In this document: positions 6,787 to 62,763 of the stretch, piece after piece
Layout: each line of letters begins with the position of its first letter
Position numbering within the stretch: the stretch's first letter is position 1
Source: Lacticaseibacillus kribbianus
Lineage (GTDB): Bacteria > Bacillota > Bacilli > Lactobacillales > Lactobacillaceae
Direction: 5' to 3'
NCBI RefSeq assembly: GCF_020180945.1
Contig: NZ_JAIPUL010000002.1
Coordinates: 62,001-126,000 of the forward strand
DNA: 64,000 nt
Made by a program: the position numbers and the translations under genes
Notes under the pieces: model-generated
What the model was told of the DNA's origin: nothing
The model's database searches: none
What the model saw: only the letters and a program-made list of their open reading frames with translations

Positions 6787-6906
6787 ACCAGAGCGCAGCG
6801 CGGCGTTTAGCCGGTCGGGTAGCGTAAGGGGGGGCGTTGGGCTGCACTTTGGCCCAGCGTCCGGCCTTAGCTAGACGAACCGGCGATGCCGCGCGGAGCT
6901 CGACGA
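6787..6906 (+). repeat. PAL1 palindromic repeat, copy 1
   Basis: First of a tandem pair right after the T-box terminator. Apical arm GGGCGTTGGGCT, loop GCACTTT, GGCCCAGCGTCC. Outer arms GCGCGGCG / GATGCCGCGC and CCGGT/ACCGG are paired. Confidence 0.8.
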
Positions 6907-7030
6907 AACCAGAGCGCAGCGCGGCGGGCTTAGCGGGTCGGGTAGCCTAGCTCGGGTGCTTGGGCCGCACTTTGGCCCGAGTACCCGGGCGTAGCTAGAC
7001 GCACCCGCGGTGCCGCGCGGAGCTCGACGA
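6907..7030 (+). repeat. PAL1 palindromic repeat, copy 2
   Basis: Second tandem copy. The apical arm CTCGGGTGCTTGGGCC pairs with GGCCCGAGTACCCGGG around loop GCACTTT, and GCGGGT pairs with ACCCGC. Sequence differs from copy 1 mainly in paired positions. Confidence 0.8.
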
Positions 7031-7076
7031 AACCAGGGCGAAGCAAGGCGCACTTAGCCGAACCGGCGTTGCCTCG
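7031..7076 (+). repeat. PAL1 fragment lacking its central hairpin
   Basis: ACCAGGGCGAAGCAAGGCG joins directly through TTAGCCG to AACCGGCGTTGCCTCGC. The whole apical half is missing while the outer arms remain, as if deleted between the internal repeats. It ends 37 bp before the PTS start. Confidence 0.6.
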
Positions 7077-7113
7077 CTCTGCACGCTCACCACACTTTTT
7101 TGGAGGTCCCAAC

Positions 7114-7581
7114 ATGTCAATCACCTTTGCACGAATCGATGAACGCCTGGTCCACGGCCAGATCATGACCACCTGGATCAAGCAGTACCCCGCTGACACC
7201 ATCCTGATCGTCGACGATGCCCTGGCCGCAGACGACTTCACCAGCTCGATCCTGGCGATGTCGGCGCCGGCCGGGCTGACCATCGCCATTCAGGGCGTGA
7301 CCGCCGCCGCGGCGACCCTGAGCGCGGCCGGCGGCGAGCCCGTGTTCGTCCTGTTCAAAACGCCGCAGGCCGCGCTGGCGCTGAGCCAGGCCGGCGTCGC
7401 ACTGGTCGCCCTGAACGTCGGCAACCTGGGCAGCCGGCCGGACCGTCGGCCGCTGACGCACCGCGTCTTCGCCAGTGACGCCGAGGTCGCCGCGCTGCGG
7501 GCGCTGGCGGCCGCCGGCACCGACGTCTACCTGCAGATGCTGCCGAGCGACGCCAGGCAGGAATTGGGGGATGTGAAATGA
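7114..7581 (+). CDS. PTS mannose/fructose/sorbose-family IIB component
   Basis: 155 residues. The phospho-accepting histidine is His14 in the invariant DERLVHGQ block. It accepts phosphate from IIA and passes it to a sugar entering through IIC/IID. The start at 7114 is set by TTGGAGGTCCC. It is translationally coupled to IIC (ATGA overlap at 7578). No IIA gene is in this operon, so it must use a IIA encoded elsewhere, for example the IIAB protein at 51.1 kb or a distant gene. Sugar specificity is unknown. Confidence 0.87.
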   Translation: MSITFARIDERLVHGQIMTTWIKQYPADTILIVDDALAADDFTSSILAMSAPAGLTIAIQGVTAAAATLSAAGGEPVFVLFKTPQAALALSQAGVALVALNVGNLGSRPDRRPLTHRVFASDAEVAALRALAAAGTDVYLQMLPSDARQELGDVK

Positions 7582-8336
7582 ATACCTTGCTGTTTGCCTT
7601 GATCATCGCCGCACTTTGCTGGCTAACCAGCTCCGCGATTCCGATGTGGTCGCGCTGGGCCTTCTACTTCGGGGCGCCGCTGGTGGCCGGGCTGATCGAC
7701 GGCCTGCTGCTCGGCGAGCTGACGTACGGGCTTCAGGTCGGCGCCACGATTCAGGCCGCCTACATCGGGCTCTTGGCGATCGGCGGGTCTTTGCCCAACG
7801 AGATGGCGATCGCCGGCTACCTCGGCGTCGCGATGACGATGCTGTCGCACAGCGACCCGGCGACGGGGCTGGCGATCGCCACGCCGCTGGGGCTGCTCGG
7901 GGTGTTGTGCCTGAACGCGAAAATGGCGCTGAACCCAATCTGGGTGCACAAGGCCGACACTTACGCCGCCGCCGGGGACATCCGCAGGCTGCGGCGCATG
8001 AACCTTTTTGCCTCGCAGATCGTGCCGTTCATCACCTACTTCATTCCGGCGTTCCTGTGCGTGTACTTCGGCGGCCACTACTTCACTGCGTTCATGGCGG
8101 CGCTGCCGGCGCAGATCACCGCGGTGCTGACGCTGATCGGCAAGCTGATGCCGGCGCTGGGGCTGGCGATGCTGATGCAGGCTTTGGCCAAGCGCTCCAC
8201 GCTGCCGTTTTTGCTAATCGGCTTCGTCCTGGCGGCGTACCTCAAGCTGAACATCACGGCCGTGGCCATCGTCGGCACCGGCTGCGCGCTGTTGCACTAC
8301 TACTACATGCCGATGGGGGGCAAGCAACATGACTAA
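7578..8336 (+). CDS. PTS mannose-family IIC component
   Basis: 252-residue integral membrane protein, the sugar-translocating IIC of the mannose/sorbose family. It has the GEL.YGLQVGATIQAAYIG segment (about residues 50-65) that marks EIIC-Man proteins, with about seven hydrophobic helices. Overlaps IIB by four bases and IID by eight, indicating one tightly coupled operon. Confidence 0.88.
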   Translation: MNTLLFALIIAALCWLTSSAIPMWSRWAFYFGAPLVAGLIDGLLLGELTYGLQVGATIQAAYIGLLAIGGSLPNEMAIAGYLGVAMTMLSHSDPATGLAIATPLGLLGVLCLNAKMALNPIWVHKADTYAAAGDIRRLRRMNLFASQIVPFITYFIPAFLCVYFGGHYFTAFMAALPAQITAVLTLIGKLMPALGLAMLMQALAKRSTLPFLLIGFVLAAYLKLNITAVAIVGTGCALLHYYYMPMGGKQHD

Positions 8337-9141
8337 GACCATCAGTAAAAAGGCACTGCGCCAGACCTGGTTTGCCTGGCAGTCCTGGGGACAGATCTGT
8401 TACAACTACGAGCGGATGATGGGGCTGGGCTTTGCGCACGCCATGTCCTACACGCTCGCCGACCTGTACCCAGACGACGACGAGGCGCTGGCCGCCGGGC
8501 TGACCCGCGAGTTGACCTACTTCAACACCGAAAATACGTGGGGCGCCATGATTCCCGGCATCGTCGCGTCTTTGGAGGAGCAAAAGGCCAACGGGCAGCC
8601 GGTGTCCGGTGACATGATCAACAACCTCAAGGCCGCCCTGATGGGGCCTTTGGCCGGCATCGGTGACACCATCACCCAGTCTTTGGTCAAGGTGATCCTC
8701 CTGGGCATCGGCATCGACATGGCCAAGAGCGGCAGCGCGCTGGGGCCGATCCTGTTTATCCTGCTGTTTTGCGCCTACGCCCTGGTCGTCGGCCACACCA
8801 CGTTTTACGCCGGCTACCGGCTGGGCAAAACGGCGGTGACCAACCTGCTGGCCGGCGGGCGCATCGCGCGGGTGACCGAGGCCATCGGTGCGTTGGGGAT
8901 GATGGTGCTCGGCGCCCTGATCCCGACCACGATCACCGTCACCACGCCGCTGAAGGCCACGTTCGGCCAGCTGAAGCTCGAGCCACAGAAAATTCTGGAC
9001 TCGGTGGTGCCGAGCCTTCTGCCGCTGATCGCCTTCGTGATCCTGTACCTGCTGCTCAAAAAGGGCGTGCGGCCGACGCGCCTGATGGCCGGGCTGATTG
9101 CCTTTGCCGTCGTCGCCGGGCTGCTGGGCGTCCTGGCCTGA
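8329..9141 (+). CDS. PTS mannose-family IID component
   Basis: 270 residues of the EIID-Man family. It begins with the typical QTWFAQ-like and QICYNYERMMGLGFAHAM region, then carries the LMGPLAGIGDTI loop (about residues 104-115) and ends with two C-terminal helices. It forms the membrane complex with IIC. Last gene of the operon. A good terminator follows only 240 bp later. Confidence 0.88.
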   Translation: MTKTISKKALRQTWFAWQSWGQICYNYERMMGLGFAHAMSYTLADLYPDDDEALAAGLTRELTYFNTENTWGAMIPGIVASLEEQKANGQPVSGDMINNLKAALMGPLAGIGDTITQSLVKVILLGIGIDMAKSGSALGPILFILLFCAYALVVGHTTFYAGYRLGKTAVTNLLAGGRIARVTEAIGALGMMVLGALIPTTITVTTPLKATFGQLKLEPQKILDSVVPSLLPLIAFVILYLLLKKGVRPTRLMAGLIAFAVVAGLLGVLA

Positions 9142-9382
9142 GGCGGCGGGTGCGCGCCGACGCTTGGACTGAGCGACTGCGGTGCAGGGCCGGCGTCGTT
9201 GCCGCTCCCGTGTCTGCGCCGCTCCCGCGTCTGCGCCGCCGATGCGGCTGCGCGGTTGCGGCCCGACCGCGGCGCAGGGGATTCCGGCACTGACGCCAGG
9301 GTGCGGCCGGTGTGCGGGCCGCACGACGGGCACGGCAGGCTGCTTGCCACCGCGCCCGGCGCCAATCAGTGGAATCGCATCT
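9142..9382. other. 240-bp gap after the PTS operon, no gene seen
   Basis: GC-rich sequence with a short direct repeat (CCGCTCCCGTGTCTGCG then CCGCTCCCGCGTCTGCG, about 9201-9240). No ORF with a ribosome site and no RNA motif recognised. Confidence 0.5.
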
Positions 9383-9409
9383 AAAGGCGGGCCGCCAGCC
9401 CGCCTTTTT
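9383..9409 (+). terminator. terminator of the IIB-IIC-IID operon
   Basis: GGCGGGC (9386-9392), loop CGCCA, GCCCGCC (9398-9404), TTTTT. Confidence 0.75.
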
Positions 9410-9483
9410 GCGTCGCGCCGGGCCCGCGGTTGACAGCTTCGCGGCCGGCGTGCTAACCTGCAATAGTTGCTAATGAGGAGCCA

Positions 9484-9510
9484 TTACGATTAAGGATTCG
9501 CTAATCGTAA
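9484..9510. promoter_or_regulatory. upstream palindrome with Zur-like half-sites
   Basis: TTACGATTA (9484-9492) and TAATCGTAA (9502-9510) are perfect inverted repeats separated by nine bases. The half-sites match those of the box at 9582-9602, though spaced differently. A weak promoter (TTGACA 9430-9435, 18 bp, TAACCT 9454-9459) lies just upstream. Confidence 0.5.
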
Positions 9511-9544
9511 CGGCCACGGCGTTGCCGGCCACGTTCACTTACTA

Positions 9545-9572
9545 TTGACAAGTGGTGACGGGCTGTTATGAT
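9545..9572 (+). promoter_or_regulatory. sigma-A promoter of the zinc-uptake operon
   Basis: TTGACA at 9545-9550, 16-bp spacer, TATGAT at 9567-9572. Transcription should begin near 9579, at the edge of the Zur-type palindrome. Confidence 0.75.
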
Positions 9573-9581
9573 GGACAATGT

Positions 9582-9602
9582 TAATCGTAGCGACTACGAT
9601 TA
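9582..9602. promoter_or_regulatory. Zur-type operator
   Basis: Perfect palindrome TAATCGTAG-CGA-CTACGATTA. It has the TCGTA-N5-TACGA core and spacing of Firmicute Zur boxes (known consensus TCGTAATNATTACGA). It covers the transcription start of a zinc-lipoprotein/zinc-free S14 operon, which is exactly the expected Zur regulon. Confidence 0.75.
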
Positions 9603-9622
9603 CGAACAACTGGGGGAACGGA

Positions 9623-10804: not shown

Positions 10805-10805
10805 T

Positions 10806-10916: not shown

Positions 10917-10927
10917 GCCCAACCACG

Positions 10928-10976
10928 GCGCCCGCCGCACCTCCCCACAGTCGGAGGTGCGGCGGGCGCTGTTTTT
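10928..10976 (+). terminator. terminator of the zinc operon
   Basis: A perfect 17-bp stem, GCGCCCGCCGCACCTCC (10928-10944) with 10953-10969, eight-base loop, then TGTTTTT. Confidence 0.9.
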
Positions 10977-10978
10977 GT

Positions 10979-11103
10979 ACCCAGGGCGGCGCATGGCGTG
11001 CTTAGGCCACCGGCTAGCGTATGGCACAGTGTTGGGCCGTACTTTGGCCCGGCACTGTGCCATAGCTAGACGAGTGGCCGTTGCCATGCGGAGCCCGACG
11101 ACA
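10979..11103 (+). repeat. PAL1 palindromic repeat, copy 3
   Basis: Apical arm TATGGCACAGTGTTGGGCC pairs with GGCCCGGCACTGTGCCATA around GTACTTT; GGCCAC pairs with GTGGCC and GCATGGC with GCCATGC. All three helices differ from other copies yet stay paired. A further 5' PAL1 fragment occupies 11104-11145. Confidence 0.8.
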
Positions 11104-11157
11104 CCTAGGGCGGAGCAAAGGCGCATTTTGCCGGTCGGCTAGGTAGTATTTGACAGT

Positions 11158-11356
11158 CCGGGCTCCGGCCCGAACGCACCACCACTTCCGGCTCCGGGCC
11201 GGGGCGGCGGAACGCGTGGGGCTCCCCTGAGCCCGTTCCGGTCTCAGGACCCGCCCTTGCTGTAAGCTGGCAAGGACGGCCAGCTAACAGCAATTTCACG
11301 CCGGCACGCCCCGGCCCTACGTCTCCAGTGGTGGTGCGTCCGAGCCTCCGCCCTAC
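11158..11356 (+). repeat. PAL3 structured repeat, copy a
   Basis: Nested helices: ACGCACCACCACT with AGTGGTGGTGCGT, GGGCCGGGGCG with CGCCCCGGCCC, CCTGAG with CTCAGG, and TTGCTGT..AGCTGGC with GCCAGCT..ACAGCAA. Compared with copy b at 54.0 kb, every helix has changed on both sides. It is flanked by a 5' PAL1 fragment and a degenerate 3' PAL1 half (about 11405-11510), so it may sit inside an older PAL1 unit. Confidence 0.75.
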
Positions 11357-11404
11357 TTAGCGGATAATTGACCGATTTATGGGGCTCGATACTTGAAAAG
11401 GCAG

Positions 11405-11510
11405 ATTTTATTTTCAGACACCACCTAGCGTATGACTGAGGCATGAAGCGCACGTTGCTGTCTGTGTCGGCCTTAGCTAGCCGAACCGGCGGCGCCTTGA
11501 ACAGCCCAAG
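11405..11510 (+). repeat. degenerate PAL1 3' part
   Basis: CACCTAGCGTATGACTGAGG, then GAAGC-GCACGTT-GCT, then CCTTAGCTAGCCGAACCGG, recognisable as PAL1 but with mismatched arms. AT-rich unique sequence (11357-11404) precedes it. Confidence 0.5.
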
Positions 11511-12267: not shown

Positions 12268-13722
12268 ATGGACTGGACTTTGATTAAAACGGTGATCACG
12301 GCGGTGTACCTGCTGAACGTGGCGGCCGCGATCCTGACGGTGTTTCGCGAAAAGCGCGACATCGCCGCGACCTGGGCGTGGCTCTTGGTGCTCAACCTGC
12401 TGCCGCTGGTCGGTTTTGCGCTGTACTACGTGTTCGGCCGCAAGCTGTCGCACCGCCAGTTGGACCTGGTGCGCGCGCAGCCGCACGCGGAGCTCAACAA
12501 AGTGCTGGCCCGCCAGCAGGAGCTGGTCCCGCGCCCGGCCGCCAGCGACTCGCAGATGGAAGCAACGGCCAAAAACATGATCACGCTGTTTCAAAACACC
12601 GACCAGAGCTTCGTCACCACCAACAACCAGGTCGGCGTGTTCACCGACGGGCCCGCGCTGTTCGACGACCTGCGCCGCGAAATTGCGGCGGCCGAGCACA
12701 GCGTGTTCGTGGAGTTTTACACCTTCTACGGCGACGCGCTCGGCGCAAGCGTCCTGGCCGCCTTGGTGGCTGCGGCCGAGTCCGGCGTGGCGGTGTATGT
12801 GCTGTACGACGCTTGGGGGTCTCTGGGCGTGAAGGCCGCGTTCTTTGACCCGCTGCGGGCGGCCGGCGGGCACGTCGAGCCGTTCCTCGGTGTCCACCAC
12901 CGGGCGGATTTTCGCCTGAACTTCCGCAATCACCGCAAGATCGTGGCGATTGACGGCTGGACCGGCTACATCGGCGGCTTCAACATCGGCGACCAGTACG
13001 TCGGTCGCGCCAAAAAGTTCGGCGCCTGGCGTGACACCCACCTGAAGGTCGAGGGCGACGCCGCGCTGGCCCTGCAGCAGCAGTTCATCCGCGACTGGAA
13101 CGCGACGGCCGGCGCCGCACAGCAGCTGGACATCAACCGGACCCATTTTCCCAAGGCCAACAACGGGCTGGGCACCGCGATGATGCAGATCGTCGCGAGC
13201 GGCCCGCAGAACGACCTGGCCCAGATCAAGCTCGGTTACATGAAAATGATCAACGCGGCGCGCGTCAGCCTGGACATCCAGACCCCGTACCTGATCCCGG
13301 ACGAAAGCGTGCTGACCAGCCTGCGCACCGCGATCCACAGCGGCGTGCGGGTGCGCATCATGATCCCGCACATGCCCGACCATGCCTTCGTCTACCGCGC
13401 CAGCCAGTACTACGCGCGCGGCCTGGCCCAGGACGGCGCGGAGATCTACTTCTACGAGGCCGGCTTCCTGCACGCCAAGGTGATGGTGGTCGACTCGGCG
13501 ATCGCCTCGGTCGGTTCGGCCAACATGGACTTTCGCAGCTTCGGCCTGAACTTCGAGGCCAACGCCTTCGTCTACGACCACGCCCTGGCCACGCAGCTTG
13601 AGGCCATCTTCACGGCGGATGTCGCCAAAAGCCGCCGCGTGACGCCGGCCGACTTCGCGGCGATGCCGCGCTGGCTGCGCTTCAAGCAGACGTTCTCGAG
13701 GCTGATATCGCCAATATTGTAG
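12268..13722 (+). CDS. cls: cardiolipin synthase (phospholipase D family)
   Basis: 484 residues. Two N-terminal membrane helices (about 1-22 and 35-55) are followed by two PLD domains, each with an HKD motif: HRKIVAIDG (about residues 218-226) and HAKVMVVDS (about 398-406). It condenses two phosphatidylglycerol molecules into cardiolipin at the membrane. The ATG at 12268 is preferred over 12262 because the GGGAGG ribosome site touches the first. The length is usual for bacterial ClsA-type enzymes. The stop is followed within a few bases by PAL1 repeats, with no terminator in between. Confidence 0.93.
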   Translation: MDWTLIKTVITAVYLLNVAAAILTVFREKRDIAATWAWLLVLNLLPLVGFALYYVFGRKLSHRQLDLVRAQPHAELNKVLARQQELVPRPAASDSQMEATAKNMITLFQNTDQSFVTTNNQVGVFTDGPALFDDLRREIAAAEHSVFVEFYTFYGDALGASVLAALVAAAESGVAVYVLYDAWGSLGVKAAFFDPLRAAGGHVEPFLGVHHRADFRLNFRNHRKIVAIDGWTGYIGGFNIGDQYVGRAKKFGAWRDTHLKVEGDAALALQQQFIRDWNATAGAAQQLDINRTHFPKANNGLGTAMMQIVASGPQNDLAQIKLGYMKMINAARVSLDIQTPYLIPDESVLTSLRTAIHSGVRVRIMIPHMPDHAFVYRASQYYARGLAQDGAEIYFYEAGFLHAKVMVVDSAIASVGSANMDFRSFGLNFEANAFVYDHALATQLEAIFTADVAKSRRVTPADFAAMPRWLRFKQTFSRLISPIL

Positions 13723-13850
13723 AGGGCGGAGCCGCGCGCACTTAGCGGGACGGGTAGCCTAGCCAAGACGCTTGGGCCGCACTTTGGCCCGAGTGCCTTG
13801 GTGTAGCTAGCCGCTCCCGCGTTGCGCGGCGTAGCCCGTTTGAGTAGAGA
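13723..13850 (+). repeat. PAL1 palindromic repeat, copy 4
   Basis: Begins right after the cls stop. Apical arms CCAAGACGCTTGGGCC / GGCCCGAGTGCCTTGG around GCACTTT; CGGGA pairs with TCCCG, GCCGCGCG with TGCGCGGC. Confidence 0.85.
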
Positions 13851-13977
13851 GGGCGGAGCAAGGCGCACTTAGCCGGTCGGGTAGCGTAAGGCCAGTGCTT
13901 GGGCCGCACTTTGGCCCGAGTGCCTTGGTGTAGCTAGACGAACCGGCGTTGCCTTGCGTAGCCCGTTTGCGTAGACG
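13851..13977 (+). repeat. PAL1 palindromic repeat, copy 5
   Basis: Tandem with copy 4. Outer arms are now GCAAGGC / GCCTTGC and CCGGT / ACCGG instead of GCCGCGCG/TGCGCGGC and CGGGA/TCCCG: compensated change between neighbours. Confidence 0.85.
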
Positions 13978-14000: not shown

Positions 14001-14223
14001 CCGCGGCCTCCGGGCCCCGGGGCGGGTCGGGCTGTGCGGCCGGTTTCCGCCCTTTGGGCTCCAACCTAAAAGATGAGCCAAGCCGCCGCCTACGGCTTCG
14101 CGCTTGTCTCATCTTTTGCCGGAAGCAGTGGCGCGAATGCCCCGCAAGGACCGCGGGTCATCCGGGCCGCTGCTTCTTTCACGGCCCGACCCGCCCCGGG
14201 GCCCTGCGGCCGCTACATGGTGG
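14001..14223 (+). repeat. PAL2 structured repeat, copy a
   Basis: Outer arms GGGCCCCGGGGCGGGTCGGG (from 14012) pair with the segment ending at 14204. Inside are two more hairpins: AAAAGATGAG/CTCATCTTTT and GAAGCAG/CTGCTTC. The second copy at 62.8 kb has different but still paired inner stems. No ORF with a ribosome site runs through it. Unique sequence follows to the aquaporin promoter. Confidence 0.75.
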
Positions 14224-16437: not shown

Positions 16438-16506
16438 CAAAGCGGCAGACCAAAAGCGCCAGCGAAACGGCTAGGCAGCCCGACCGGCTAAGCCCGCCGC
16501 GCTCCA

Positions 16507-16640
16507 CCCTCTAAACGGGTTCCAAAGCGCAACGCGGGTGCGGCCTGCTACGCAATGGCGCTCGAAGCAAAGTGCGCTTCAAGCGCCATTGCTAGGCAGT
16601 CCGACCCGCTAAGTACGCGCCGCTCCACCCTCTCTTGAAA
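16507..16640 (-). repeat. PAL1 palindromic repeat, copy 6 (reverse)
   Basis: Reverse orientation. CAATGGCGCTCGAAGC / GCTTCAAGCGCCATTG around AAAGTGC (loop GCACTTT on the minus strand). A PAL1 fragment precedes it (about 16470-16506). Unlike most copies it lies antisense, ending at the ribosome site of the DUF916 gene. Confidence 0.8.
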
Positions 16641-16653: not shown

Positions 16654-17685
16654 ATGCGTCTCAAAACTCTGCTGCTCGTTGCCCTGGCGGCCCTTGGGCT
16701 CGGGGCGAGCCAGGCCAAGCCTGCGTACGCCGCGACCGGGGCGGCCTACACCGTCAGCCCCGTGATTCCCAGCAACCAGCGCAGCGCGGTGTCGAGCTAC
16801 TTCGACCTGGTCGTCAAGCCCGGCGCCGTGCAGCCGCTGACCGTTGCGGTGACCAACGCGACGGCCACGACGCGGCACCTGCGGCTGTCCTTGACGCACG
16901 CCTACACGCAGGACAACGGCGAGATCGGCTACAAGCCCAACGGTCCCAAGGACGCCTCGGCGCAGTACCGGCTGGATCAGCTGGGGGCGGCCAGCCAAAA
17001 GGTGACGCTTGCGGCCAAGCAGACCAAGCGCGTGACGGTGAAGGTGACGATTCCCAAGGGTGGGTTCACCGGCGTGATCCTCGGCGGGCTGTACATCGTC
17101 GACGAGGGGGAAAGCGCGGGGGCCAGCGCCAACGGGGTGCAGTTCAGCAACCGCTACGCCACTTTGGTCGGCGTGCAGCTGCAGACCAGCACCGGCGCGA
17201 TCAACCGCGTGAAGCCGGCGCTCAAGTTGCAGGCGGTCGGCGCGGGCATCGCGAACAACCGCCCCGGCGTTTTGGCCACGATCCAGAACCCGACGCCGAC
17301 GTACTGGGGCAAAATGCTGGTGACGGCGAAGGTCTACCGGCGCAACAGCGACACGGTGGTGATGAGGCGAACCGCGAGCAACTACGCGACGGCGCCCAAC
17401 AGCCATTTTGACTTCGGCATTACGCAGTCGACGGGGCTGGCCCCGGGCGACTACACGCTGGATCTGCTGGTCACGGGGCCGCACGGGCGCTGGCACTGGC
17501 GCCGCAACTTCTCGATTCTGACCGAGCAGGCGCAGCGCATCAACAAGAAGCTGGCGCTCAAGACGCCGTTCACGATGCCGTGGTGGGGCTGGGTCCTGAT
17601 CGGGCTGGGCGCGCTGCTGGTGATCGGGCTGCTCTGGTGGCTGATCGTGCTGCTGCGCCGGCGCAAGAAGGACGAGGACGACTAG
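16654..17685 (+). CDS. DUF916/DUF3324 WxL-interacting membrane protein
   Basis: 343 residues: signal peptide (about 1-26), a DUF916 domain opening with YTVSPVIPSNQ, a second Ig-like DUF3324 half, and a C-terminal membrane anchor (about 308-334) with a basic/acidic tail (RRRKKDEDD). Such proteins hold WxL proteins at the membrane and bind peptidoglycan. Ribosome site GAAAGGAG. It heads a three-gene unit with the LPQTG protein (16-base gap) and lectin-WxL protein. Confidence 0.9.
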   Translation: MRLKTLLLVALAALGLGASQAKPAYAATGAAYTVSPVIPSNQRSAVSSYFDLVVKPGAVQPLTVAVTNATATTRHLRLSLTHAYTQDNGEIGYKPNGPKDASAQYRLDQLGAASQKVTLAAKQTKRVTVKVTIPKGGFTGVILGGLYIVDEGESAGASANGVQFSNRYATLVGVQLQTSTGAINRVKPALKLQAVGAGIANNRPGVLATIQNPTPTYWGKMLVTAKVYRRNSDTVVMRRTASNYATAPNSHFDFGITQSTGLAPGDYTLDLLVTGPHGRWHWRRNFSILTEQAQRINKKLALKTPFTMPWWGWVLIGLGALLVIGLLWWLIVLLRRRKKDEDD

Positions 17686-21404: not shown

Positions 21405-21455
21405 GTGGCTTGGCGCTAGGCTACCCGTCCCGCTAAGTGCGCGCCGCTCCGCCCT
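21405..21455 (-). repeat. PAL1 5' fragment overlapping AraC gene end
   Basis: Reverse-oriented 5' half of PAL1 (GGCTAGGCTACCCGTCCCGC on the plus strand). Its edge supplies the last codons and stop of the minus-strand AraC gene (C-terminus RAQGGAART). Confidence 0.7.
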
Positions 21456-22206
21456 GGGCCCGGTAGGCGGACGGCGTCTCTCCCAGCCGACGCCGGAAGG
21501 CCTGGTTGAACGCGTGCAGCGAGCCGAACCCCGCCTGACTTGCGACGGCGGCCACCGGGTCGGCGGTTGCGGTCAGCAGCTGCGTGGCCTTGGTCAGGCG
21601 GAAGCTCTGGACATAGGCGGTGTAGGAGAGCCCGAGCTGGTGCGAGAAGGTCCGCGAGAGGTACGAGTAATCGTAGCCCAGCGCCTGCGCGCAACCGCGC
21701 AGGCCGCAGTCGCCCTGGTAGTGGGCCTCGATGTAGGCCAGCACCTGGTACAAGAGGCGCTGCTCGGAGGAGGGCTGCTCACCGCGGTACGCGCGGGCCG
21801 GCGTGTCGAACTGGGCCAGGACCTGGTACAGCCACGCCTTTTGGGCCAGCGGCGTGGCGAAGCCCAGGGGATGCGCCAGGTCGGCCCCGGTCAGGCAAAA
21901 GTCCGTCGGCGCCTGCTGGGCGTGGGCTTGGGCAAAGTCGGGCACCAGCTCGGGAGCAAAAATGGTGACGGCGAAGCGGTTTTGGCCGGGGCTTGTGAAG
22001 CCGTGCGGTTGGTTGGGGAACACCAGCGCGGCCTGCCCCGCGGTCAGCCGCCGGGTCGCCTGGCCGATGGTCACGTCCAGGGCACCGGCCGCCACGGTCA
22101 TCAGCTCGAAGGCTCGGTGGAAGTGGCGGGGGAAGTCGTGATCGTGCAGCTCGTGGCGCTTGAACGGCACCGCCGTCGCGAGGCCGTAATGCTCGAAGAA
22201 AAACAT
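21433..22206 (-). CDS. AraC family regulator, probably of the xylosidase gene
   Basis: 257 residues: an N-terminal cupin-like sensing domain (HFHRAFELMTV near residue 30) and a C-terminal pair of helix-turn-helix motifs (about 165-250; LRGCAQALGYDYSYLSRTF and VAAVASQAGFGSLHAFNQAF). It is divergent from the GH120 gene 103 bp away, so it most likely controls it in response to a xylo-oligosaccharide. The last residues come from a PAL1 repeat that runs into the gene's 3' end. Confidence 0.85.
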   Translation of the reverse strand: MFFFEHYGLATAVPFKRHELHDHDFPRHFHRAFELMTVAAGALDVTIGQATRRLTAGQAALVFPNQPHGFTSPGQNRFAVTIFAPELVPDFAQAHAQQAPTDFCLTGADLAHPLGFATPLAQKAWLYQVLAQFDTPARAYRGEQPSSEQRLLYQVLAYIEAHYQGDCGLRGCAQALGYDYSYLSRTFSHQLGLSYTAYVQSFRLTKATQLLTATADPVAAVASQAGFGSLHAFNQAFRRRLGETPSAYRAQGGAART

Positions 22207-41054: not shown

Positions 41055-41106
41055 AAAGAGCTTCGCGTCACCATCCATTCGCTGGATGGTGGGGCGAAGC
41101 TCTTTT
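41055..41106 (+). terminator. terminator of pyk
   Basis: AAAGAGCTTCGC with GCGAAGCTCTTTTT, plus an inner CACCATCC/GGATGGTG helix. Confidence 0.93.
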
Positions 41107-41108
41107 TG

Positions 41109-41235
41109 CGTACCAGGGCGGAACGGGGCGGACTTAGCGGGCCGCATAGCGTAGCGCTGGTGCTTGGGGCGCACTTGGCCCCAAGCGCCGGTGCTAGCTA
41201 TGCGAGCCCGCGTTGCCCCGCGGAGCCCGACGATG
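41109..41235 (+). repeat. PAL1 palindromic repeat, copy 7
   Basis: Follows the pyk terminator. GCGGGC/GCCCGC and CGCATAGC/GCTATGCG are paired; apical arms GGTGCTTGGGGC / TGGCCCCAAGCGCC. Confidence 0.85.
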
Positions 41236-41507: not shown

Positions 41508-42818
41508 ATGAAAGAGAAGCTGCTGGCCTACTTCGAGATTCGAGAACTGAACACGACCGTCCGCCGCGAAATCCTGGCGGGGTTCACCACGTTCATCTCG
41601 ATGGCCTACATTCTGTTCGTCAATCCATCCGTACTGGGCGCTTCGGGGATGGATAAGGGCGCGGTGTTCACCGCGACCGCCCTGGCCTCGGCCCTTGGGT
41701 GCATGCTGATGGGGATCCTCGCGAAGTACCCGATCGCGACCGCCCCGGCGCTTGGCATCAACGCCTTTTTCGCCTACTCGGTCTGCATCGGCATGAAGAT
41801 TCCGTGGGAAACCGCGCTGGCCGGCGTGTTCGTCGCCGCCCTGATCTTCATCGTCATCACGATCTTCAAGCTGCGCGAGATGATCATCGACGCGATTCCC
41901 GCCGACCTGAAGTACGCAATCTCCGGGGGCATCGGGCTGTTCATCGCGTTCCTCGGGTTGTCCGACGGCGGCCTGATCGTCGCCAACAAGTCCACGCTGG
42001 TCGGCCTCGGGTCGCTCAGCGTCGGGACCACCTGGCTGACCGTGTTCGGCCTGATCGTCACGGCCATTTTGATGGTCAAAAAGGTTCCGGGGGGCATTTT
42101 CATCGGCATGGTCCTGACCACCATCCTGGGTCTGGCGACCGGCCTGATCCACGCGCCGAGCGCCATCGTGTCCGGCGCGCCGTCGCTTGCGCCGACCTTC
42201 CTGGTGGCCGTCAAACACGTCGGCGACATCAACTCGCTGCAGCTGGTGGTCGTGGTGCTGACCTTCCTTCTGGTCACCTTCTTTGACACCGCCGGCACGC
42301 TGGTCGGCCTGGCCAACCAGGCCGGCTTCATGAAGGACAACAAGATGCCGCGCGTCGGCAAGGCGTTGGCCTCCGACTCCACCGCCATGCTCGCCGGGTC
42401 GCTGCTGGGCACCAGCCCGGTCGGCGCCTTCGTGGAAAGCTCCGCCGGCATCGCGGTCGGCGGCCGCAGCGGCCTGACCGCCGTGGTCACCGGGATTTTC
42501 TTCCTGCTCGGCCTGTTCTTCTCGCCGCTTTTGGCCGTGGTCACGACGCAGGTCACCGCGCCGGCTTTGATCATCGTCGGGGTGCTGATGGCGCAGTCGC
42601 TGCGCCAGATCAACTGGAGCCAGCTGGAAATCGCGATTCCGTCCTTCCTGATTCTGCTCGGGATGCCTTTGACCTACAGCATCTCCGACGGCATCGCGCT
42701 TGGGTTCGTCTTCTACCCGATCACGATGATCGCCGCCAAGCGCGGCAAGGAGGTCTCGCCGATCATGTACGGCCTGTTCTTCGTCTTCATCGGGTTCATG
42801 TGGATACTGAATATGTAG
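41508..42818 (+). CDS. AzgA-type purine permease (NCS2 superfamily)
   Basis: 436 residues, about 12-14 membrane helices, of the AzgA/PbuG/PbuO group of hypoxanthine-guanine/adenine permeases. The opening FEIRELNTTVRREILAGFTTF and MAYILFVNP are hallmarks, as are the half-helix motifs ATAPALGINAFFAY and FDTAGTLVGLANQAG. It imports purine bases with protons. Start at 41508 after TTGGAGGC; the longer frame to 41463 is rejected. The stop is followed at once by PAL1 repeats, so its terminator lies 275 bp downstream. Confidence 0.9.
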   Translation: MKEKLLAYFEIRELNTTVRREILAGFTTFISMAYILFVNPSVLGASGMDKGAVFTATALASALGCMLMGILAKYPIATAPALGINAFFAYSVCIGMKIPWETALAGVFVAALIFIVITIFKLREMIIDAIPADLKYAISGGIGLFIAFLGLSDGGLIVANKSTLVGLGSLSVGTTWLTVFGLIVTAILMVKKVPGGIFIGMVLTTILGLATGLIHAPSAIVSGAPSLAPTFLVAVKHVGDINSLQLVVVVLTFLLVTFFDTAGTLVGLANQAGFMKDNKMPRVGKALASDSTAMLAGSLLGTSPVGAFVESSAGIAVGGRSGLTAVVTGIFFLLGLFFSPLLAVVTTQVTAPALIIVGVLMAQSLRQINWSQLEIAIPSFLILLGMPLTYSISDGIALGFVFYPITMIAAKRGKEVSPIMYGLFFVFIGFMWILNM

Positions 42819-42821
42819 CGC

Positions 42822-42932
42822 GTGGAAAACCGCGGGCTTAGCAGGCCGCGTAGCGCAGGGGTGGTGCATGAAGCGGGTTTTGCTTCGTGCACCACCTTAG
42901 CTATGCGAGCCTGCGTTGCGGTTTGGAACGCG
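42822..42932 (+). repeat. PAL1 palindromic repeat, copy 8
   Basis: Directly after the permease stop. Apical arms GGTGGTGCATGAAGC / GCTTCGTGCACCACC around the alternative loop GGGTTTT. Confidence 0.85.
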
Positions 42933-43058
42933 TTTAGAGGGCGGAGCCGAGCGTACTTAGCGGGTCGGGTGGCCTAGCCAAGGCGCTTGGGCCGTACTTT
43001 GGCCCGAGTGCCTTGGCGTAGCCAGCCGTACCCGCGTTGCTCGGCGAAGCCCGTTTAG
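42933..43058 (+). repeat. PAL1 palindromic repeat, copy 9
   Basis: Tandem with copy 8 but with the other loop type: CCAAGGCGCTTGGGCC / GGCCCGAGTGCCTTGG around GTACTTT. Confidence 0.85.
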
Positions 43059-43094
43059 CGCGTGAACCGCTGTGTGGCGAATGGTTGCGTCGAG

Positions 43095-43124
43095 ACGGGC
43101 ACCTCAACTGGGGTGCCCGTTTTT
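43095..43124 (+). terminator. terminator displaced from the purine permease by PAL1 repeats
   Basis: ACGGGCACC (43095-43103), GGTGCCCGT (43112-43120) and T-run. Nothing codes between the permease stop (42818) and here except two PAL1 copies. Confidence 0.85.
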
Positions 43125-43264
43125 GCGTTGGAAAGCGGCGTGCCCCACTGTGCGACACGATGTCACCTGCCGCCTCCCGGCCCCGCGCCCAGTCCGGCAT
43201 CGGACCAGCGACGGATGGGCGGTGTCGCCGGCCGTGGTACACTGGAAGCCGTGGGAGGGATAAC

Positions 43265-44402: not shown

Positions 44403-44530
44403 TATCTAAACGCGTTCCCCGCGGCAACGCGGAAGCGGCTAGCTACGCCGCGGCCCTCGGGGCAAGTGCGGCCCCAAGCGCCACGGCTAGGCTACCCGTT
44501 CCGCTAAGCCCGCCGCGGCTCACGCTCTAT
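44403..44530 (-). repeat. PAL1 palindromic repeat, copy 10 (reverse)
   Basis: Lies downstream (minus strand) of the ABC ATPase gene. GCCGCGGCCCTCGGGGC / GCCCCAAGCGCCACGGC around AAGTGCG; a PAL1 fragment continues to its left (44375-44402). Confidence 0.8.
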
Positions 44531-44655
44531 CTAAACGCGTTCCCCGCGGCAACGCAGGTGCGTCCAGCTAGCACCGGTCCTCGAAGCATAACCCGCTTCA
44601 AGAACCGGCGCTACGCTGGCCGACCTGCTAAGCCCGCCGCGGCTCACGCTCTGTT
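44531..44655 (-). repeat. PAL1 palindromic repeat, copy 11 (reverse)
   Basis: Touches the end of the ABC ATPase gene. CGGTCCTCGAAGC / GCTTCAAGAACCG around ATAACCC (loop GGGTTAT), a third loop variant. Confidence 0.8.
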
Positions 44656-45401: not shown

Positions 45402-45530
45402 GAACGTCGTCGAGCGCCGCGGGGCAACGCGGGAGCGGCTAGCTACGCCCAACCACTCGGGCCAAAGTGCGGCCCAAGCGGTTGAGCTAGGCTACCCGTC
45501 CCGCTAAGTGCGCCCCGCTCTGCTCTGGCT
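45402..45530 (-). repeat. PAL1 palindromic repeat, copy 12 (reverse), inside ABC operon
   Basis: CAACCACTCGGGCC / GGCCCAAGCGGTTG around AAAGTGC. It starts one base after the permease stop (minus strand) and ends about 14 bases before the ATPase start. Confidence 0.85.
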
Positions 45531-47219: not shown

Positions 47220-47392
47220 AAGAATCATAGCGCTCCGAAGCATTGCTTCGACAGTCCAGCGGCTTTCGCCCACTGTCCCAACCCGCCAGGTGCCTAATCG
47301 CCCGGTGAGTTTCGGCGGGGGTGCTTACGGCTGATTCATCGGGTTAGGCCCTCCTCAGCTGTCGTCACCACCCGCGACCTCTATTTCTTGGT
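47220..47392 (-). ncRNA. lysine riboswitch (L-box) aptamer
   Basis: Minus-strand elements in order: ATAGAGGTCGCG (47384-47373), GCCGAA (47316-47311) and GGACTGTC (47257-47250), matching the known L-box landmarks AGAGGNGCG, GCCGAA and GGCTGTC. The ends AAGAAATAG and CTATGATTCTT can form P1. A promoter precedes it and a terminator follows. It should reduce transporter expression when lysine is plentiful. Confidence 0.8.
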
Positions 47393-53897: not shown

Positions 53898-54024
53898 ACC
53901 GGGGCGAAGCGGGGCGTACTTAGCCGGACGGGTAGCCTAGTCAGGAGGCTTGGGCCGTACTTTGGCCCGAGCTTCCTGACGTAGCTAGCCGCTCCGGCGA
54001 TGCCCCGCGTAGCCCGACGATACC
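53898..54024 (+). repeat. PAL1 palindromic repeat, copy 13
   Basis: TCAGGAGGCTTGGGCC / GGCCCGAGCTTCCTGA around GTACTTT; CCGGA pairs with TCCGG, GGGGC with GCCCC. Followed directly by a PAL1 edge (CCAGGGCGAAGC) joined to PAL3. Confidence 0.85.
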
Positions 54025-54032: not shown

Positions 54033-54235
54033 GCCGGGCTCCGGCCCGGCCGGCGTGGCGCTTCCGGCTCCGGGCCAAGGCGGCGGAACGCGTGCGGCTC
54101 CCGCAAGCCCAAAGACCGGTCTTGCGACCCGCCGTTGCTGTAAGCCGGCAAAATCGGCCGGCTAACAGCAATTTCACGCTGGCTCGCCTTGGCCCTCCGC
54201 CTCCAGTGCCACGCCGGCCGGGCCTCCGCCCTACA
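54033..54235 (+). repeat. PAL3 structured repeat, copy b
   Basis: CCGGCGTGGC with GCCACGCCGG; CGGGCCAAGGCG with CGCCTTGGCCC; CGCAAG with CTTGCG; TTGCTGT..AGCCGGC with GCCGGCT..ACAGCAA. Same helix plan as copy a with different arms. Confidence 0.75.
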
Positions 54236-57920: not shown

Positions 57921-57928
<8 letters not shown>

Positions 57929-59450: not shown

Positions 59451-59554
59451 GCACGGGTGGCCGCGCGGCGCGCCTTGACGCCCGCGGGAAACCGCGCGCC
59501 CTTGGCGGCCTGCCCGCCACCGCGGCGCGCACCGAGACAGACACACAGATAGGG

Positions 59555-59585
59555 GAGGCGATGCCAGCCGGCATCGCCTCTTTTT
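59555..59585 (+). terminator. terminator of two-component operon
   Basis: GAGGCGATGCC, AGCC, GGCATCGCCTC, T5. Confidence 0.93.
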
Positions 59586-59672
59586 CGTGCGCCCGCACCC
59601 GCGTTTCTGAAAGCCCGCCTGGACGCACCGTGTCCAGACGAACGCCGAAAGGCCGCGTGGCGGCAGCGCTTT

Positions 59673-59737
59673 CTTAGAATCCTTAATCTTGTGCTTAGAA
59701 AACCTTGAATGCAGACCGGGCGCCGCGTCGGTACACT
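59673..59737 (+). promoter_or_regulatory. dlt promoter with CTTRRA direct repeats
   Basis: CTTAGAATCCTTAAT (59673-59687) and CTTAGAAAACCTTGAAT (59694-59710) are direct repeats 21 bp apart, each holding two CTT-type half-sites 9-10 bp apart. They end 21 bp before a -10 TACACT (59732-59737), replacing a good -35. This is the arrangement expected of an OmpR-type activator site. Confidence 0.6.
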
Positions 59738-59778
59738 GGGTTTATGTTTTCAAAACTTGTGGCAAGGGAGGCGGCACA

Positions 59779-59925
59779 GTGGCGCGTTTCATCAACTTCT
59801 GGCACCGACCGCTGGTGTCATTCATCGCCCGCACGGTTTTGTACACCGCAATCCTGATTGTCCTGGTGTACCTGTACAGCTACCGCGGCGTGGCAGGCGG
59901 TCATTTCATCTACAACGAATTCTAA
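59779..59925 (+). CDS. dltX: DltX, small teichoic-acid D-alanylation protein
   Basis: 48 residues: one membrane helix and the invariant C-terminus GGHFIYNEF, essential for D-alanyl transfer in related bacteria. It starts with GTG at 59779 after GGGAGGCGGCACA. First gene of the dlt operon, ten bases before dltA. Confidence 0.93.
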   Translation: MARFINFWHRPLVSFIARTVLYTAILIVLVYLYSYRGVAGGHFIYNEF

Positions 59926-59935
59926 GGGGTGCACG

Positions 59936-61444
59936 ATGCAATCTACGATTATTGAGGCGATCGATGCGGTCGCAATGCAGGAACCGAACCGCCCGGCCAT
60001 CGACGTGCTGGGTCAGGTCAACACATACGGCGAGCTGAAGGCGGCCTCCGACGCGATCGCGGCGGACCTCGCCGTGCGGCCAATCGCGGCCAAGACGCCG
60101 ATCCTGGTCTACTGCGACCAGAGCTTCGCAGCCATCGCGGCCTTTCTCGGCTGTGTGAAGGCGGGGCACGCCTACATTCCGGTGGACACCCACTCGCCCA
60201 AGGACCGGCTGACGATGATCGAAGACATCGCCAAGCCCGCCCTGGTGATCGCCACGGTGCCGCTGCCGCTCACGCTGCACACGCCGACGGTGACGCCGGA
60301 ACAGCTCCAAGCGACGATGCAGGACGGCGCGGCCGCCCCGGCCCCGAGCCTGCAGGGCGGCGACAACTTCTACATCATTTTCACCTCCGGCACCACCGGC
60401 CAGCCCAAGGGCGTGCAGATCAGCCTGGACAACCTGGCGAGCTTCGTGGCCTGGATGGCCGACTTCAACCTGCCGACCCAGGCCAAAATGCTCGCGCAGG
60501 CGCCGTTCTCCTTCGACCTGTCCGTCATGTCGCTGTACCCGGCGCTGACCGCCGGCGGCTGCCTGAAGGTGCTGCCCAAGGAGACGACCGCGGACCTGCG
60601 CCAGCTCGTCACCGCACTGCCGGACCTGGACGTCGACGTCTGGGTGTCCACGCCGAGCTTCATCGAGATGTGCCTGCTGGATCCGACCTTTGACGCGGCG
60701 CACCACCCGAACCTTCGCCAGCTGTTCTTCTGCGGCGAGGAGCTGACCCACAAAACCGCGGCACGGCTCCTGGATCGCTTCCCCGCTGCCGAGCTGTTCA
60801 ACACCTACGGGCCGACCGAGGCCACGGTGGCGGTCACGGCGGTGCGCATCACCCAGGACATCCTAGCCCGCTACCCGCGGCTGCCGATCGGGTACGCCAA
60901 GCCGGACACGACGCTGCGGCTGATCGCCGAGACGGCCCAGCAGGAGGGCGACCGCGTGATCGGCGAGCTCGCGATCGCCGGCCCGAGCGTCTCCAAGGGC
61001 TACCTGAACCGGCCGAACAAGACGGCCGCCGTTTTCACCACCGACCGCGGCGTTCAGGCCTACCGCACCGGCGACCTCGGCTACATCGAAGACGACGGGC
61101 TGATCTTCTACTGCGGGCGGACCGATTTTCAGATCAAGCTCAACGGCTACCGCATCGAGCTGGAAGAGGTGAACCACTACCTCAACCTCGCGCCGATGAT
61201 CCGCCAGGGCGTCGCGGTGCCGCGCTACAACCGCGAGCACAAGGTCGCCGCGCTGCTCGCCTACGTGGTGCCGGCCGACCCGACCGTCGACCCCGCGACC
61301 CTGACCACCGCGATCCACGAACACCTGCAGGGCGTGATGATGGCCTACATGATCCCGTCGCGCTTCGAGTTCAAGGACAGCCTGCCCCTGACGCAAAACG
61401 GTAAGGTCGCGATCAAGGCGCTGATTCAAGAGGTCAACGCATGA
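59936..61444 (+). CDS. dltA: D-alanine--D-alanyl carrier protein ligase
   Basis: 502 residues of the adenylate-forming family: P-loop TSGTTGQPKG (about 147-156), YGPTEATV (about 290), YRTGDLG (about 375) and the C-terminal catalytic Lys in LPLTQNGKVAIK (about 492). It activates D-alanine and loads it on DltC. Ribosome site AAGGGGTGCACG. Overlaps dltB by ATGA. Confidence 0.97.
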   Translation: MQSTIIEAIDAVAMQEPNRPAIDVLGQVNTYGELKAASDAIAADLAVRPIAAKTPILVYCDQSFAAIAAFLGCVKAGHAYIPVDTHSPKDRLTMIEDIAKPALVIATVPLPLTLHTPTVTPEQLQATMQDGAAAPAPSLQGGDNFYIIFTSGTTGQPKGVQISLDNLASFVAWMADFNLPTQAKMLAQAPFSFDLSVMSLYPALTAGGCLKVLPKETTADLRQLVTALPDLDVDVWVSTPSFIEMCLLDPTFDAAHHPNLRQLFFCGEELTHKTAARLLDRFPAAELFNTYGPTEATVAVTAVRITQDILARYPRLPIGYAKPDTTLRLIAETAQQEGDRVIGELAIAGPSVSKGYLNRPNKTAAVFTTDRGVQAYRTGDLGYIEDDGLIFYCGRTDFQIKLNGYRIELEEVNHYLNLAPMIRQGVAVPRYNREHKVAALLAYVVPADPTVDPATLTTAIHEHLQGVMMAYMIPSRFEFKDSLPLTQNGKVAIKALIQEVNA

Positions 61445-62640
61445 GCCCGCTGTCTCCGTACGCCGACCCCAAGTACTTCCTGATCCTGCTGGTGGCGCTG
61501 ATTCCCGTGATTGTCGGCCTGTGGCACGGCCACCGGCTGCGCTACTGGGAAAGCGGCGTCGCACTGGTGTTCATCGCCTGGATGTTTGCCGGGCCGCACA
61601 AGTGGCACGAAGGCGTCGCCCTGATCGCCTACGTGATTTTCCAGCTCGCCCTGGTCGAGGGCTACGCGCACTATCGCAAGGCCCACAACCAGACGCCGAC
61701 CTTCGTGCTGGCGGTTCTTGCCAGCATCGCCCCGTTGGCGGTGGTCAAGCTGACGCCGGTGTTTTCGGTTCAGCCGTCGCTGCTCGGGTTTCTCGGCATC
61801 TCGTATCTGACCTTCAAGTCGGTGCAGGTAATCATGGAGCTGCGCGACGGCGCGCTCAAGGCCGTGCCGCCGGTCGCGTTCCTGCGCTTCCTGCTTTTCC
61901 TGCCGACCATCTCCAGCGGCCCGATCGACCGCTTCCGGCGCTTCCAGAAGGACTACGACGCGGTGCCGACCCAGGACGCCTACCTGGAAATGCTGGGGCG
62001 GGCGCTGAAATCGGTGATGCTCGGGTTCGGCTACAAGTTCGTGCTGGGCTACCTGTTCGGCACGGTGATGCTGCCGCAGGTCACGCAGGCCGCCATGGCC
62101 GCGCGTGGCACCTGGGCCTTGACCTGGCCTTTGATCGGCTACATGTACACGTACTCGATGTACCTGTTCTTTGATTTTGCCGGCTACAGCCTGTTTGCGG
62201 TGGGGATGAGCCTCGTGATGGGCATCGACACGCCGGTCAACTTCAACAAGCCGTTCGCCGCGGGCAACATCAAGGAGTTCTGGAACCGGTGGCACATGAC
62301 GCTGTCGTTTTGGTTCCGCGACTTCATCTTCATGCGCGTCACGTTCTTCATCATGAAGCACAAGCTGATCAAAAACCGCATCCGCGTCTCGCAGGTCGCC
62401 TACCTGATCAACTTCCTGATCATGGGCTTCTGGCACGGCGTCACGTGGTACTACATCGTCTACGGGCTGTTCCACGCCGGCGCCATCATCATCAACGACT
62501 ACTGGCTCCGCTACAAGAAAAAGCACCGGGCGACGATGCCGCACAACCAGTGGACCCAGGCCCTGGCCGTGGTCATCACGTTCAACGTGGTCTGCTTCAG
62601 CTTCCTGATCTTCTCCGGATTCCTGGGGCAGGTGTTCTAA
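61441..62640 (+). CDS. dltB: MBOAT D-alanyl transfer protein
   Basis: 399 residues of the membrane-bound O-acyltransferase family, about eleven helices, with FWNRWHMTLSFWFRDF (about 280-295) and the active-site His in MGFWHGVTWYY (about 332-342). It moves D-alanine from DltC across the membrane. Its stop codon is followed immediately by a PAL1 repeat instead of dltC. Confidence 0.97.
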   Translation: MSPLSPYADPKYFLILLVALIPVIVGLWHGHRLRYWESGVALVFIAWMFAGPHKWHEGVALIAYVIFQLALVEGYAHYRKAHNQTPTFVLAVLASIAPLAVVKLTPVFSVQPSLLGFLGISYLTFKSVQVIMELRDGALKAVPPVAFLRFLLFLPTISSGPIDRFRRFQKDYDAVPTQDAYLEMLGRALKSVMLGFGYKFVLGYLFGTVMLPQVTQAAMAARGTWALTWPLIGYMYTYSMYLFFDFAGYSLFAVGMSLVMGIDTPVNFNKPFAAGNIKEFWNRWHMTLSFWFRDFIFMRVTFFIMKHKLIKNRIRVSQVAYLINFLIMGFWHGVTWYYIVYGLFHAGAIIINDYWLRYKKKHRATMPHNQWTQALAVVITFNVVCFSFLIFSGFLGQVF

Positions 62641-62763
62641 AACCAGGGCGATGCGCGGCGCACTTAGCCGGACGGGTAGCCTAGCCGGGGCACTTGGACC
62701 GCACTATGGCGCAAGCGACCAGGCGTAGCTAGCCGCTCCGGCGTTGCCGCGCGTAGCCCGACG
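62641..62763 (+). repeat. PAL1 palindromic repeat, copy 14, inside the dlt operon
   Basis: Begins at the base after the dltB stop. CCGGA/TCCGG and GCGCGGC/GCCGCGC paired; the apical arm CCGGGGCACTTGGACC / GGCGCAAGCGACCAGG has several mismatches and loop GCACTAT, the least regular full copy. Confidence 0.8.

Follow-up and report, generated by a model that had tools for sequence, protein, structure and literature searches.

PAL1, a ~120-bp hairpin repeat of Lacticaseibacillus kribbianus whose fold is kept on one strand, may be a REPIN-like mobile element of lactic acid bacteria

Within a window of 64,000 nt from Lacticaseibacillus kribbianus (contig NZ_JAIPUL010000002.1, positions 62001–126000; genome 2.79 Mb) we analyzed the repeat PAL1, each copy of which forms a rod-shaped hairpin of ~120 nt. 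The PAL1 helices covary between copies, it is the same strand that folds better, the 5′ ends of the repeat arrays are anchored to gene ends and other hairpins, arrays turn over between closely related sequences, and the family has a wide host range. Our favored explanation, to which we give moderate confidence, is that PAL1 is a short (~120 bp), non-autonomous, interspersed mobile element of a REPIN-like kind, whose propagation depends on its fold.

A covariance model was built on the 14 full copies of the window and was then run on the host genome and on related genomes. All 14 copies that had been listed in a first-pass annotation of the window were recovered in place. Fragments exist as well, although there are four of them at E ≤ 1e-3 and not about eight, the earlier count having taken in shorter scraps (Table 1). 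The search showed that the family is larger than stated in that annotation and is found beyond the window. In the host genome, 150 of 3021 candidates were scored and all 150 matched the model. The copy counts cover 390,834 distinct bases (14.0% of the genome), which were picked around matches. They comprise 297 PAL1 matches, 261 of them full, and the genome-wide number exceeds 261 full copies. When matches separated by gaps of less than 60 nt were joined, 126 arrays were obtained in the same part of the genome. Five of these consist of fragments alone, whereas 41, 47, 16, 11, 4, 1, and 1 arrays contain 1, 2, 3, 4, 5, 6, and 8 full units, respectively. The units of an array are organized head-to-tail, with full neighbors mostly 118–127 nt apart, and many of the arrays end with a 5′ part of one more unit.

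At the base of the rod is an outer helix (GGGC/GCCC), followed by a second one and by an internal loop whose two sides are unequal (YACTTA versus GT). Above this loop there are a third helix, which has small interruptions, a loop of 3 nt, and finally the apical helix, closed by a loop of the form G-x-x-C-T-T-x. The helices named in the first-pass annotation are present in the copies, and the internal positions CTTAG and GTTGC pointed out there are nearly invariant across the 261 full copies. The apical loop, which had been described as nearly constant, is more variable than that: GCACTTT or GTACTTT occurs exactly in 9 of the 14 window copies and in 120 of the 261 genome copies (100 and 20, respectively), and it is the pattern G-x-x-C-T-T-x that is kept. 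RNAalifold assigned 42 column pairs to the 14 window copies, 27 of which show two-sided change, so that the joint variation of both arms noticed earlier is confirmed. In these copies 94.5% of 584 cells pair, compared to 78.2% in shuffles and 35–46% when the partners were slid against each other, and none of 500 shuffles matched the 14-copy value on any of five measures. Five of the 14 window copies, folded singly on the drawn strand, were 6.4–10.5 standard deviations better than dinucleotide shuffles. Among 255 distinct copies, 8934 cells are Watson–Crick, 1095 G.T, 120 A.C, 433 other, and 128 gapped.

Judged by eye, the units have two types of ends in the host, CCAGGGC..GCCCGACGA (C-type) and AGAGGGC..GCCCGTTTA (G-type), and a third type, AAGGCTGCG..GCGCAAC, was found in other congeners. 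At columns 39–42 and 82–84 the 3-nt loop seems to occur in two modules, namely CTAG with an extra opposite G and GTAA without it, a linkage that was likewise seen by eye. A correlation between the letters of the internal loop and of the apical loop (columns 19–20 with 60–61) was considered as well and was dropped, since the table, for which no formal test was made, suggests nothing beyond base composition.

Covariation was evaluated with a substitute for R-scape, in which parsimony substitution counts were placed randomly on a FastTree tree and a G statistic with average product correction was used. Against this phylogenetic null there were 17 significant column pairs, 16 of which belong to the structure, with every helix represented. 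When one copy per array was used (121 sequences), 13 pairs were significant and 12 of them belong to the structure. The sole significant pair outside the structure joins columns 2 and 119, which are the unit ends of the C..A or G..T type. The remaining 26 of the 42 structure pairs stay below significance, many of them because they hardly vary. The first-pass annotation had regarded a lack of covarying pairs above the phylogenetic null as speaking against its proposal, and in the form of the substitute test this objection does not arise, as 16 structure pairs were significant.

The agreement of the arms might also arise without any selection on structure, if one arm served as template for the other, either in template-switch correction of quasi-palindromes or in gene conversion within a copy. 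Such copying would fit the finding that pairing-preserving two-sided changes exceed one-sided changes between copies with more than 20 differences, and deletions at the hairpin base hint at folding of the strand while it is replicated. Closely related copies, however, argue against it. In 33 copy pairs with 1–5 differences there are 47 one-sided changes, 25 of which keep a standard pair while 22 break it, and not a single two-sided one; in 29 copy pairs with 6–9 differences, 109 one-sided changes stand against 12 two-sided changes that keep the pairing and five that do not. Since close copies differ one-sidedly and compensation accumulates stepwise, simple copying of one arm onto the other does not account for their agreement. 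A broken intermediate has been captured in the array at 44.4 kb, which has an ortholog in the congener G010: pair 49–75 is TA in the host, and of the three matching G010 units two have CG and one has CA, so that the series TA, CA, CG represents stepwise compensation. In addition, the unequal internal loops and the mostly fixed G.T pairs survive, both of which would be erased by copying, and copying gives no reason for the strand asymmetry described below. Thus, arm copying without selection is largely refuted and we consider it very improbable. The same results do not support the structure-specific copying that the first-pass annotation had offered as one reason for the compensated changes, whereas its other proposal, a selected structure, is sustained by the covariation above the phylogenetic null, the stepwise compensation, and the one-strand tolerance of G.T.

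The latter was deduced from the mismatches. On the strand as drawn, G.T occurs in 480 cells and A.C in 117 (39 pairs; three mostly fixed G.T pairs excluded), and by pair there is a G.T excess in 28, an A.C excess in 8, and equality in 3. The G.T excess is present in every orientation to the neighboring genes, with 92 versus 14 in the 52 distinct copies that are antisense to both neighbors, as well as in other congeners, where 324 G.T and 35 A.C were counted (88 distinct rows, poorly paired rows dropped; alignment fitted to the model). The drawn strand is also the more stable one in 247 of the 255 copies with RNA parameters and in 254 with DNA parameters, and it folds better in all of 22 copies from 21 congeners and in 16 of 20 copies from two other genera, in one of which the difference is smaller. 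Strand-biased deamination was tried as an origin of the G.T excess and rejected. Among recent changes there are 26 G.T versus 13 A.C (small numbers), the excess is seen at A-T pairs (10 versus 2) as well as at G-C pairs (16 versus 11), and unpaired columns are balanced, with 12 C/T versus 14 A/G differences. A symmetric cruciform would give no bias and is therefore disfavored. Thus, from the first-pass annotation, which had proposed RNA or cruciform DNA, the RNA is retained but not the symmetric cruciform, and single-stranded DNA fits as well as RNA. It is well supported that selection acts on the fold of one strand.

A tolerance of G.U on one strand would also be expected if PAL1 were a structured RNA of its own, either an expressed small RNA or an RNA mobilized via cDNA. 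The excess of G.T over A.C and the conservation of the internal loop and of part of the apical loop, with the stems free to vary, correspond to the pattern of a structured RNA. However, no sigma-70-like promoter was found in the sole array region that was scanned (42700–43200), the host genome is devoid of the reverse transcriptase family, there is no Rfam match over the copies, and expression would be needed at each of hundreds of loci. We therefore regard an RNA of its own as unlikely.

In order to find out how far the family extends, other genomes were searched. PAL1 matches were obtained in 28 of 30 genomes of the genus, host included, with none in G008 and G011, and one congener has at least 150 copies. 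A restriction to the genus, which was initially suggested by 0 of 16 genomes from other families, was abandoned when 295 genomes, drawn evenly from the order, revealed two further genera; eight of the 295, from 3 of 74 genera, match (under strict filters, with 12 candidates scored for each genome). Four of the eight belong to the two other genera, one of which is in another family, and have 32, 2, 14, and 8 matches (E ≤ 0.001). The 20 copies examined from other genera have the same length and fold, and most of their ends are G-type-like (AGAG..CGTT). Furthermore, 14 plasmid records, nine from Pediococcus and five from Lacticaseibacillus, match a copy of the congener G042 (L172); with the window's own copy or a G163 copy as query, no match was obtained in the plasmid and phage collections. 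In another genus, group II intron parts lie ~165 bases from a PAL1-like copy (L201 from G139, 1501–1618 and 1783–2532, minus strand).

For an analysis of turnover, 17 host arrays, chosen among those with flank matches, were compared base by base with G010. Seven loci are occupied in both genomes and ten are without a copy in G010, several of the latter holding unrelated sequence instead. Among the seven shared loci there are two clear orthologs (6.8 and 44.4 kb), whereas in the others the arrays coincide to the base but have stems that differ for the most part. The nearest relative of a G010 copy is a host copy in 20 of 30 cases and a copy at another G010 locus in 9, with one tie, although the host was sampled more deeply; with equal sampling, the closest relative of a host copy is in the host itself for 196 of the 261 copies and in G010 for 52, with 13 ties. 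In the C-type, the bases that flank the first unit recur before the second one (at least 4 nt) in 14 of 55 arrays compared to 2.0 expected, a value that none of 2000 permutations reached; among the 14, arrays 23 and 29 are preceded by another piece of PAL1.

The plasmids provide a comparison on closely matching backgrounds. A phosphotransferase system (PTS) operon on plasmids of L. paracasei and P. inopinatus carries a PAL1 unit antisense between two genes. An L. plantarum record of this operon (98% identity) has no unit but retains the unit's last bases, and a Pediococcus pentosaceus record (84% identity) has neither unit nor scar. At another operon on L. paracasei plasmids, near-identical flanks enclose two units plus a scar, one unit, or a scar alone, and a hairpin-base deletion was found on a P. 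acidilactici plasmid. The ~98%-identical sites without a full copy retain scars and are deletion derivatives. These data demonstrate loss of PAL1 and change of its arrays on near-identical backgrounds; gain would occur by insertion.

The genomic position of the 126 arrays was determined with a simple codon-usage gene caller. In 88 of them the upstream gene is on the same strand, and of these 31 start no more than 4 nt from the stop codon (or overlap with it) while 28 start 34–58 nt past it. Where arrays are antisense to both neighbors, the start codon is 17–26 nt away in 9 of 27, which means that the 5′ end of the array abuts the Shine–Dalgarno sequence. A run of at least four T within 16 nt 5′ of the array is present in 44 of 75 C-type arrays versus 7 of 42 G-type arrays. 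Distances to genes on the 3′ side are broad. PAL1 is thus anchored by its 5′ end behind stop codons or terminators, or ahead of Shine–Dalgarno sequences.

Such a position would also make sense if each array were retained because the host uses it as a structured part of the neighboring gene's mRNA, where it could serve as 3′-end stabilizer, terminator, processing site, or intergenic insulator. Besides the 5′ ends at stop codons and terminators, this is in agreement with the copy at 45.4 kb, which lies in sense between two same-strand transporter genes, with the arrays that two species have retained in exactly the same place, and with recent changes, which are fewer per column in paired (47 in 80 columns) than in unpaired positions (45 in 34 columns). 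However, the strand asymmetry is equal or stronger in antisense copies (92:14), where the neighbor's mRNA carries the opposite strand, and copies past terminators should scarcely be transcribed. Likewise, the absence of a copy from 10 of the 17 compared loci in the close relative G010 and the occurrence of the same plasmid operon with and without PAL1 do not point to a function for the neighboring genes. Because the strand bias goes with PAL1 irrespective of the gene next to it, a per-copy role for the host is less likely, and we find this explanation doubtful.

Two further palindromic repeat families were observed next to PAL1. One of ~195 bp (GGGCTCCGGCCC... / ...GGGCCTCCGCCC; 11160–11353, 54036–54231, and 63107–63302) has outer arms that are 74–79% complementary and twice adjoins PAL1; many array flanks match a place in G010 (C12, ~150430–150640) that resembles this family. 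The other one, of ~210 bp (14003–14213 and 62790–62999), has arms with 91% complementarity and adjoins PAL1 as well, and four PAL1 arrays elsewhere in the genome have near-identical flanks that resemble its center, as if PAL1 were located inside.

The first-pass annotation knew of no described family with the features of PAL1. This holds for the sequence: a search with Rfam 15 gave no gathering-score match over the PAL1 copies of the window or 20 loci of other species, and at most sub-threshold matches of miRNA/snoRNA type for one array, and no earlier description was found in the literature, although an earlier account is possible since subscription papers were mostly beyond reach. The kind of element, in contrast, is known, as there are REPINs, REPs, and elements similar to miniature inverted-repeat transposable elements (MITEs). 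For REPINs and REPs, changes in one arm of the hairpin that are compensated in the other are reported, as are tandem clusters that carry flanking sequence along, and the fold is considered critical for propagation (PMC3116915). PAL1 resembles these elements in its compensatory changes and tandem clusters, in having hundreds of copies between genes, and in a hairpin unit whose size is ~100 bp (PMC3116915). It differs in that its host has no RAYT (Y1_Tnp), its hosts are Gram-positive, head-to-tail arrays are common, and an internal loop is conserved along the rod; moreover, GTAG is not an unpaired end tag in PAL1, where 40 of 261 copies have it inside the outer 3′ arm. With no RAYT in the host and no end tag, PAL1 is not a REPIN by membership, and the best reading of this comparison is that it probably works like one.

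GTAG REPs are reported to adjoin the 3′ end of upstream genes, where the GTAG terminus can supply a TAG stop codon, and a class of REPs with a CGTC tag occurs without linked transposase (PMC3733652). C-type PAL1 ends read TCGTC on the opposite strand and are in this respect like the latter class, whereas G-type and other-genera copies are without CGTC; the GTAG and CGTC REPs described there measure 20–40 bp (CGTC stems 8–9 bp) and are mostly head-to-head dimers, unlike PAL1 (PMC3733652). A likeness to MITEs is given by terminal inverted repeats, which in PAL1 correspond to the outer helix GGGC/GCCC that covaries at 5–116. By description, PAL1 can also be likened to the bcr repeats of the Bacillus cereus group, which are interspersed repeats of Firmicutes with mobile-element character, and to the EFAR repeats of Enterococcus faecalis, which are palindromic miniature insertion sequences from a genus of the Lactobacillales and target stem-loops. 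The former differ from PAL1 in their host group, and the latter in being L-shaped and ~170 bp long. Finally, PAL1 units could be attC-like sites of which one strand is folded and exchanged by a tyrosine recombinase. The one-strand fold, the conserved unpaired bases, the free stems, and the arrays would suit such sites, but attC core boxes (R′/R″) were not recognized by eye at the unit ends, and the usual spacing of 118–127 nt leaves no room for cassettes, which makes attC-like sites the least probable of the explanations considered here.

If PAL1 is a REPIN-like element, selection would act on a single strand of DNA, or on the transcript of that strand, in its rod-shaped fold, in which the unequal internal loops are conserved and the apical loop is conserved in part. 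New copies may enter beside gene ends and other hairpins via an agent that acts in trans, and arrays would then gain or lose units when the short repeats that border each unit recombine or slip. A copy unable to fold would cease to propagate and surviving lineages would therefore keep the fold, while their stems may drift by one-sided change followed by compensation. The selecting agent would then be fold-dependent propagation and not a benefit for the host. A further proposal, which we put forward only tentatively, is that PAL1 represents miniature elements, distributed across no fewer than two families of the order, whose mobile form is a single folded strand of DNA or RNA and whose target choice, behind terminators, stop codons, and their own hairpins, is guided by hairpins. 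Movement without RAYT or reverse transcriptase would imply a new mobilizing enzyme or a borrowed host process in lactic acid bacteria.

Several results weigh against REPIN-like propagation. The whole-genome searches for a mobilizer covered two families, Y1_Tnp (PF01797) and RVT_1 (PF00078), and neither of them is present in the host genome, so that a Y1 transposase or a reverse transcriptase was rejected as present mobilizer; in the genus, Y1_Tnp occurs in 13 of 30 genomes without visible relation to the PAL1 number, and RVT_1 in 11 of 30. A dedicated gene beside the largest arrays was also rejected, since the 20 proteins scanned, of 40 listed as neighbors, include no transposase family (16 match ordinary enzyme, transporter, and similar families and four match none). 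Among the loci and plasmids compared, there is no insertion with a clean target duplication, and in the 20 G-type arrays the match between flank and linker is not above permutation (p = 0.16). Loci at which the arrays of two species coincide to the base fit a positional function for the host too. In the orthologous 44.4-kb array several changes break pairs, and thus selection on the fold is not absolute.

With a 120-nt fold that is kept by compensatory change in two families of the order, at least 261 host copies, and further copies on plasmids of food bacteria, PAL1 offers a within-genome record of structure-dependent selection. Through PAL1, the spread of palindromic repeats without transposase becomes testable in the tractable species L. 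paracasei, L. rhamnosus, and P. acidilactici. Array length differs between near-identical plasmids and could serve for strain typing.

Table 1. PAL1 copies and fragments of the window, followed by array variants on plasmids
Feature	Positions	Strand	Remarks
PAL1 copy, unit 1 of array with two full units	6788–6904	+	orthologous copy in G010
PAL1 copy, unit 2 of array	6909–7028	+	
PAL1 fragment	7034–7079	+	upper hairpin deleted
PAL1 copy	10981–11099	+	immediately 3′ of terminator-like hairpin 10920–10977
PAL1 fragment	11425–11507	+	weak
PAL1 copy, unit 1 of two	13721–13840	+	
PAL1 copy, unit 2 of two	13848–13967	+	
PAL1 fragment	16462–16512	-	3′ truncated
PAL1 copy	16514–16633	-	antisense to gene 16654–17685, abuts its Shine–Dalgarno sequence
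PAL1 fragment	21413–21456	-	3′ truncated
PAL1 copy	41113–41231	+	3′ of terminator-like hairpin 41055–41105; no copy in G010
PAL1 copy	42817–42934	+	right at stop codon of permease gene
PAL1 copy, unit 2 of array	42936–43055	+	
PAL1 copy	44409–44528	-	orthologous units in G010 (five units at that locus)
PAL1 copy	44534–44652	-	TA at pair 49–75 versus CA or CG in orthologous G010 units
PAL1 copy	45409–45528	-	between stop codon of ATP-binding cassette (ABC) transporter gene and Shine–Dalgarno sequence of next gene; absent there in G010
PAL1 copy	53899–54018	+	3′ of terminator-like hairpin; different copy at same place in G001, none in G010
PAL1 copy	62643–62762	+	apex degraded; just 3′ of stop codon
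Array variant, L. paracasei plasmid L222	2373–2617		
Array variant, L. paracasei plasmid L223	2501–2615		
Array variants, L. paracasei plasmids L226 and L227	~1100–1145		

Two other features of the window were noted. At 6700–6780, upstream of the genes past 7.1 kb, a GGTACCGCGG motif is followed by a terminator, an arrangement like that of T-box leaders, for which Rfam gave no report at gathering score. A lysine riboswitch (RF00168, 68 bits) is located on the minus strand at 47220–47391.

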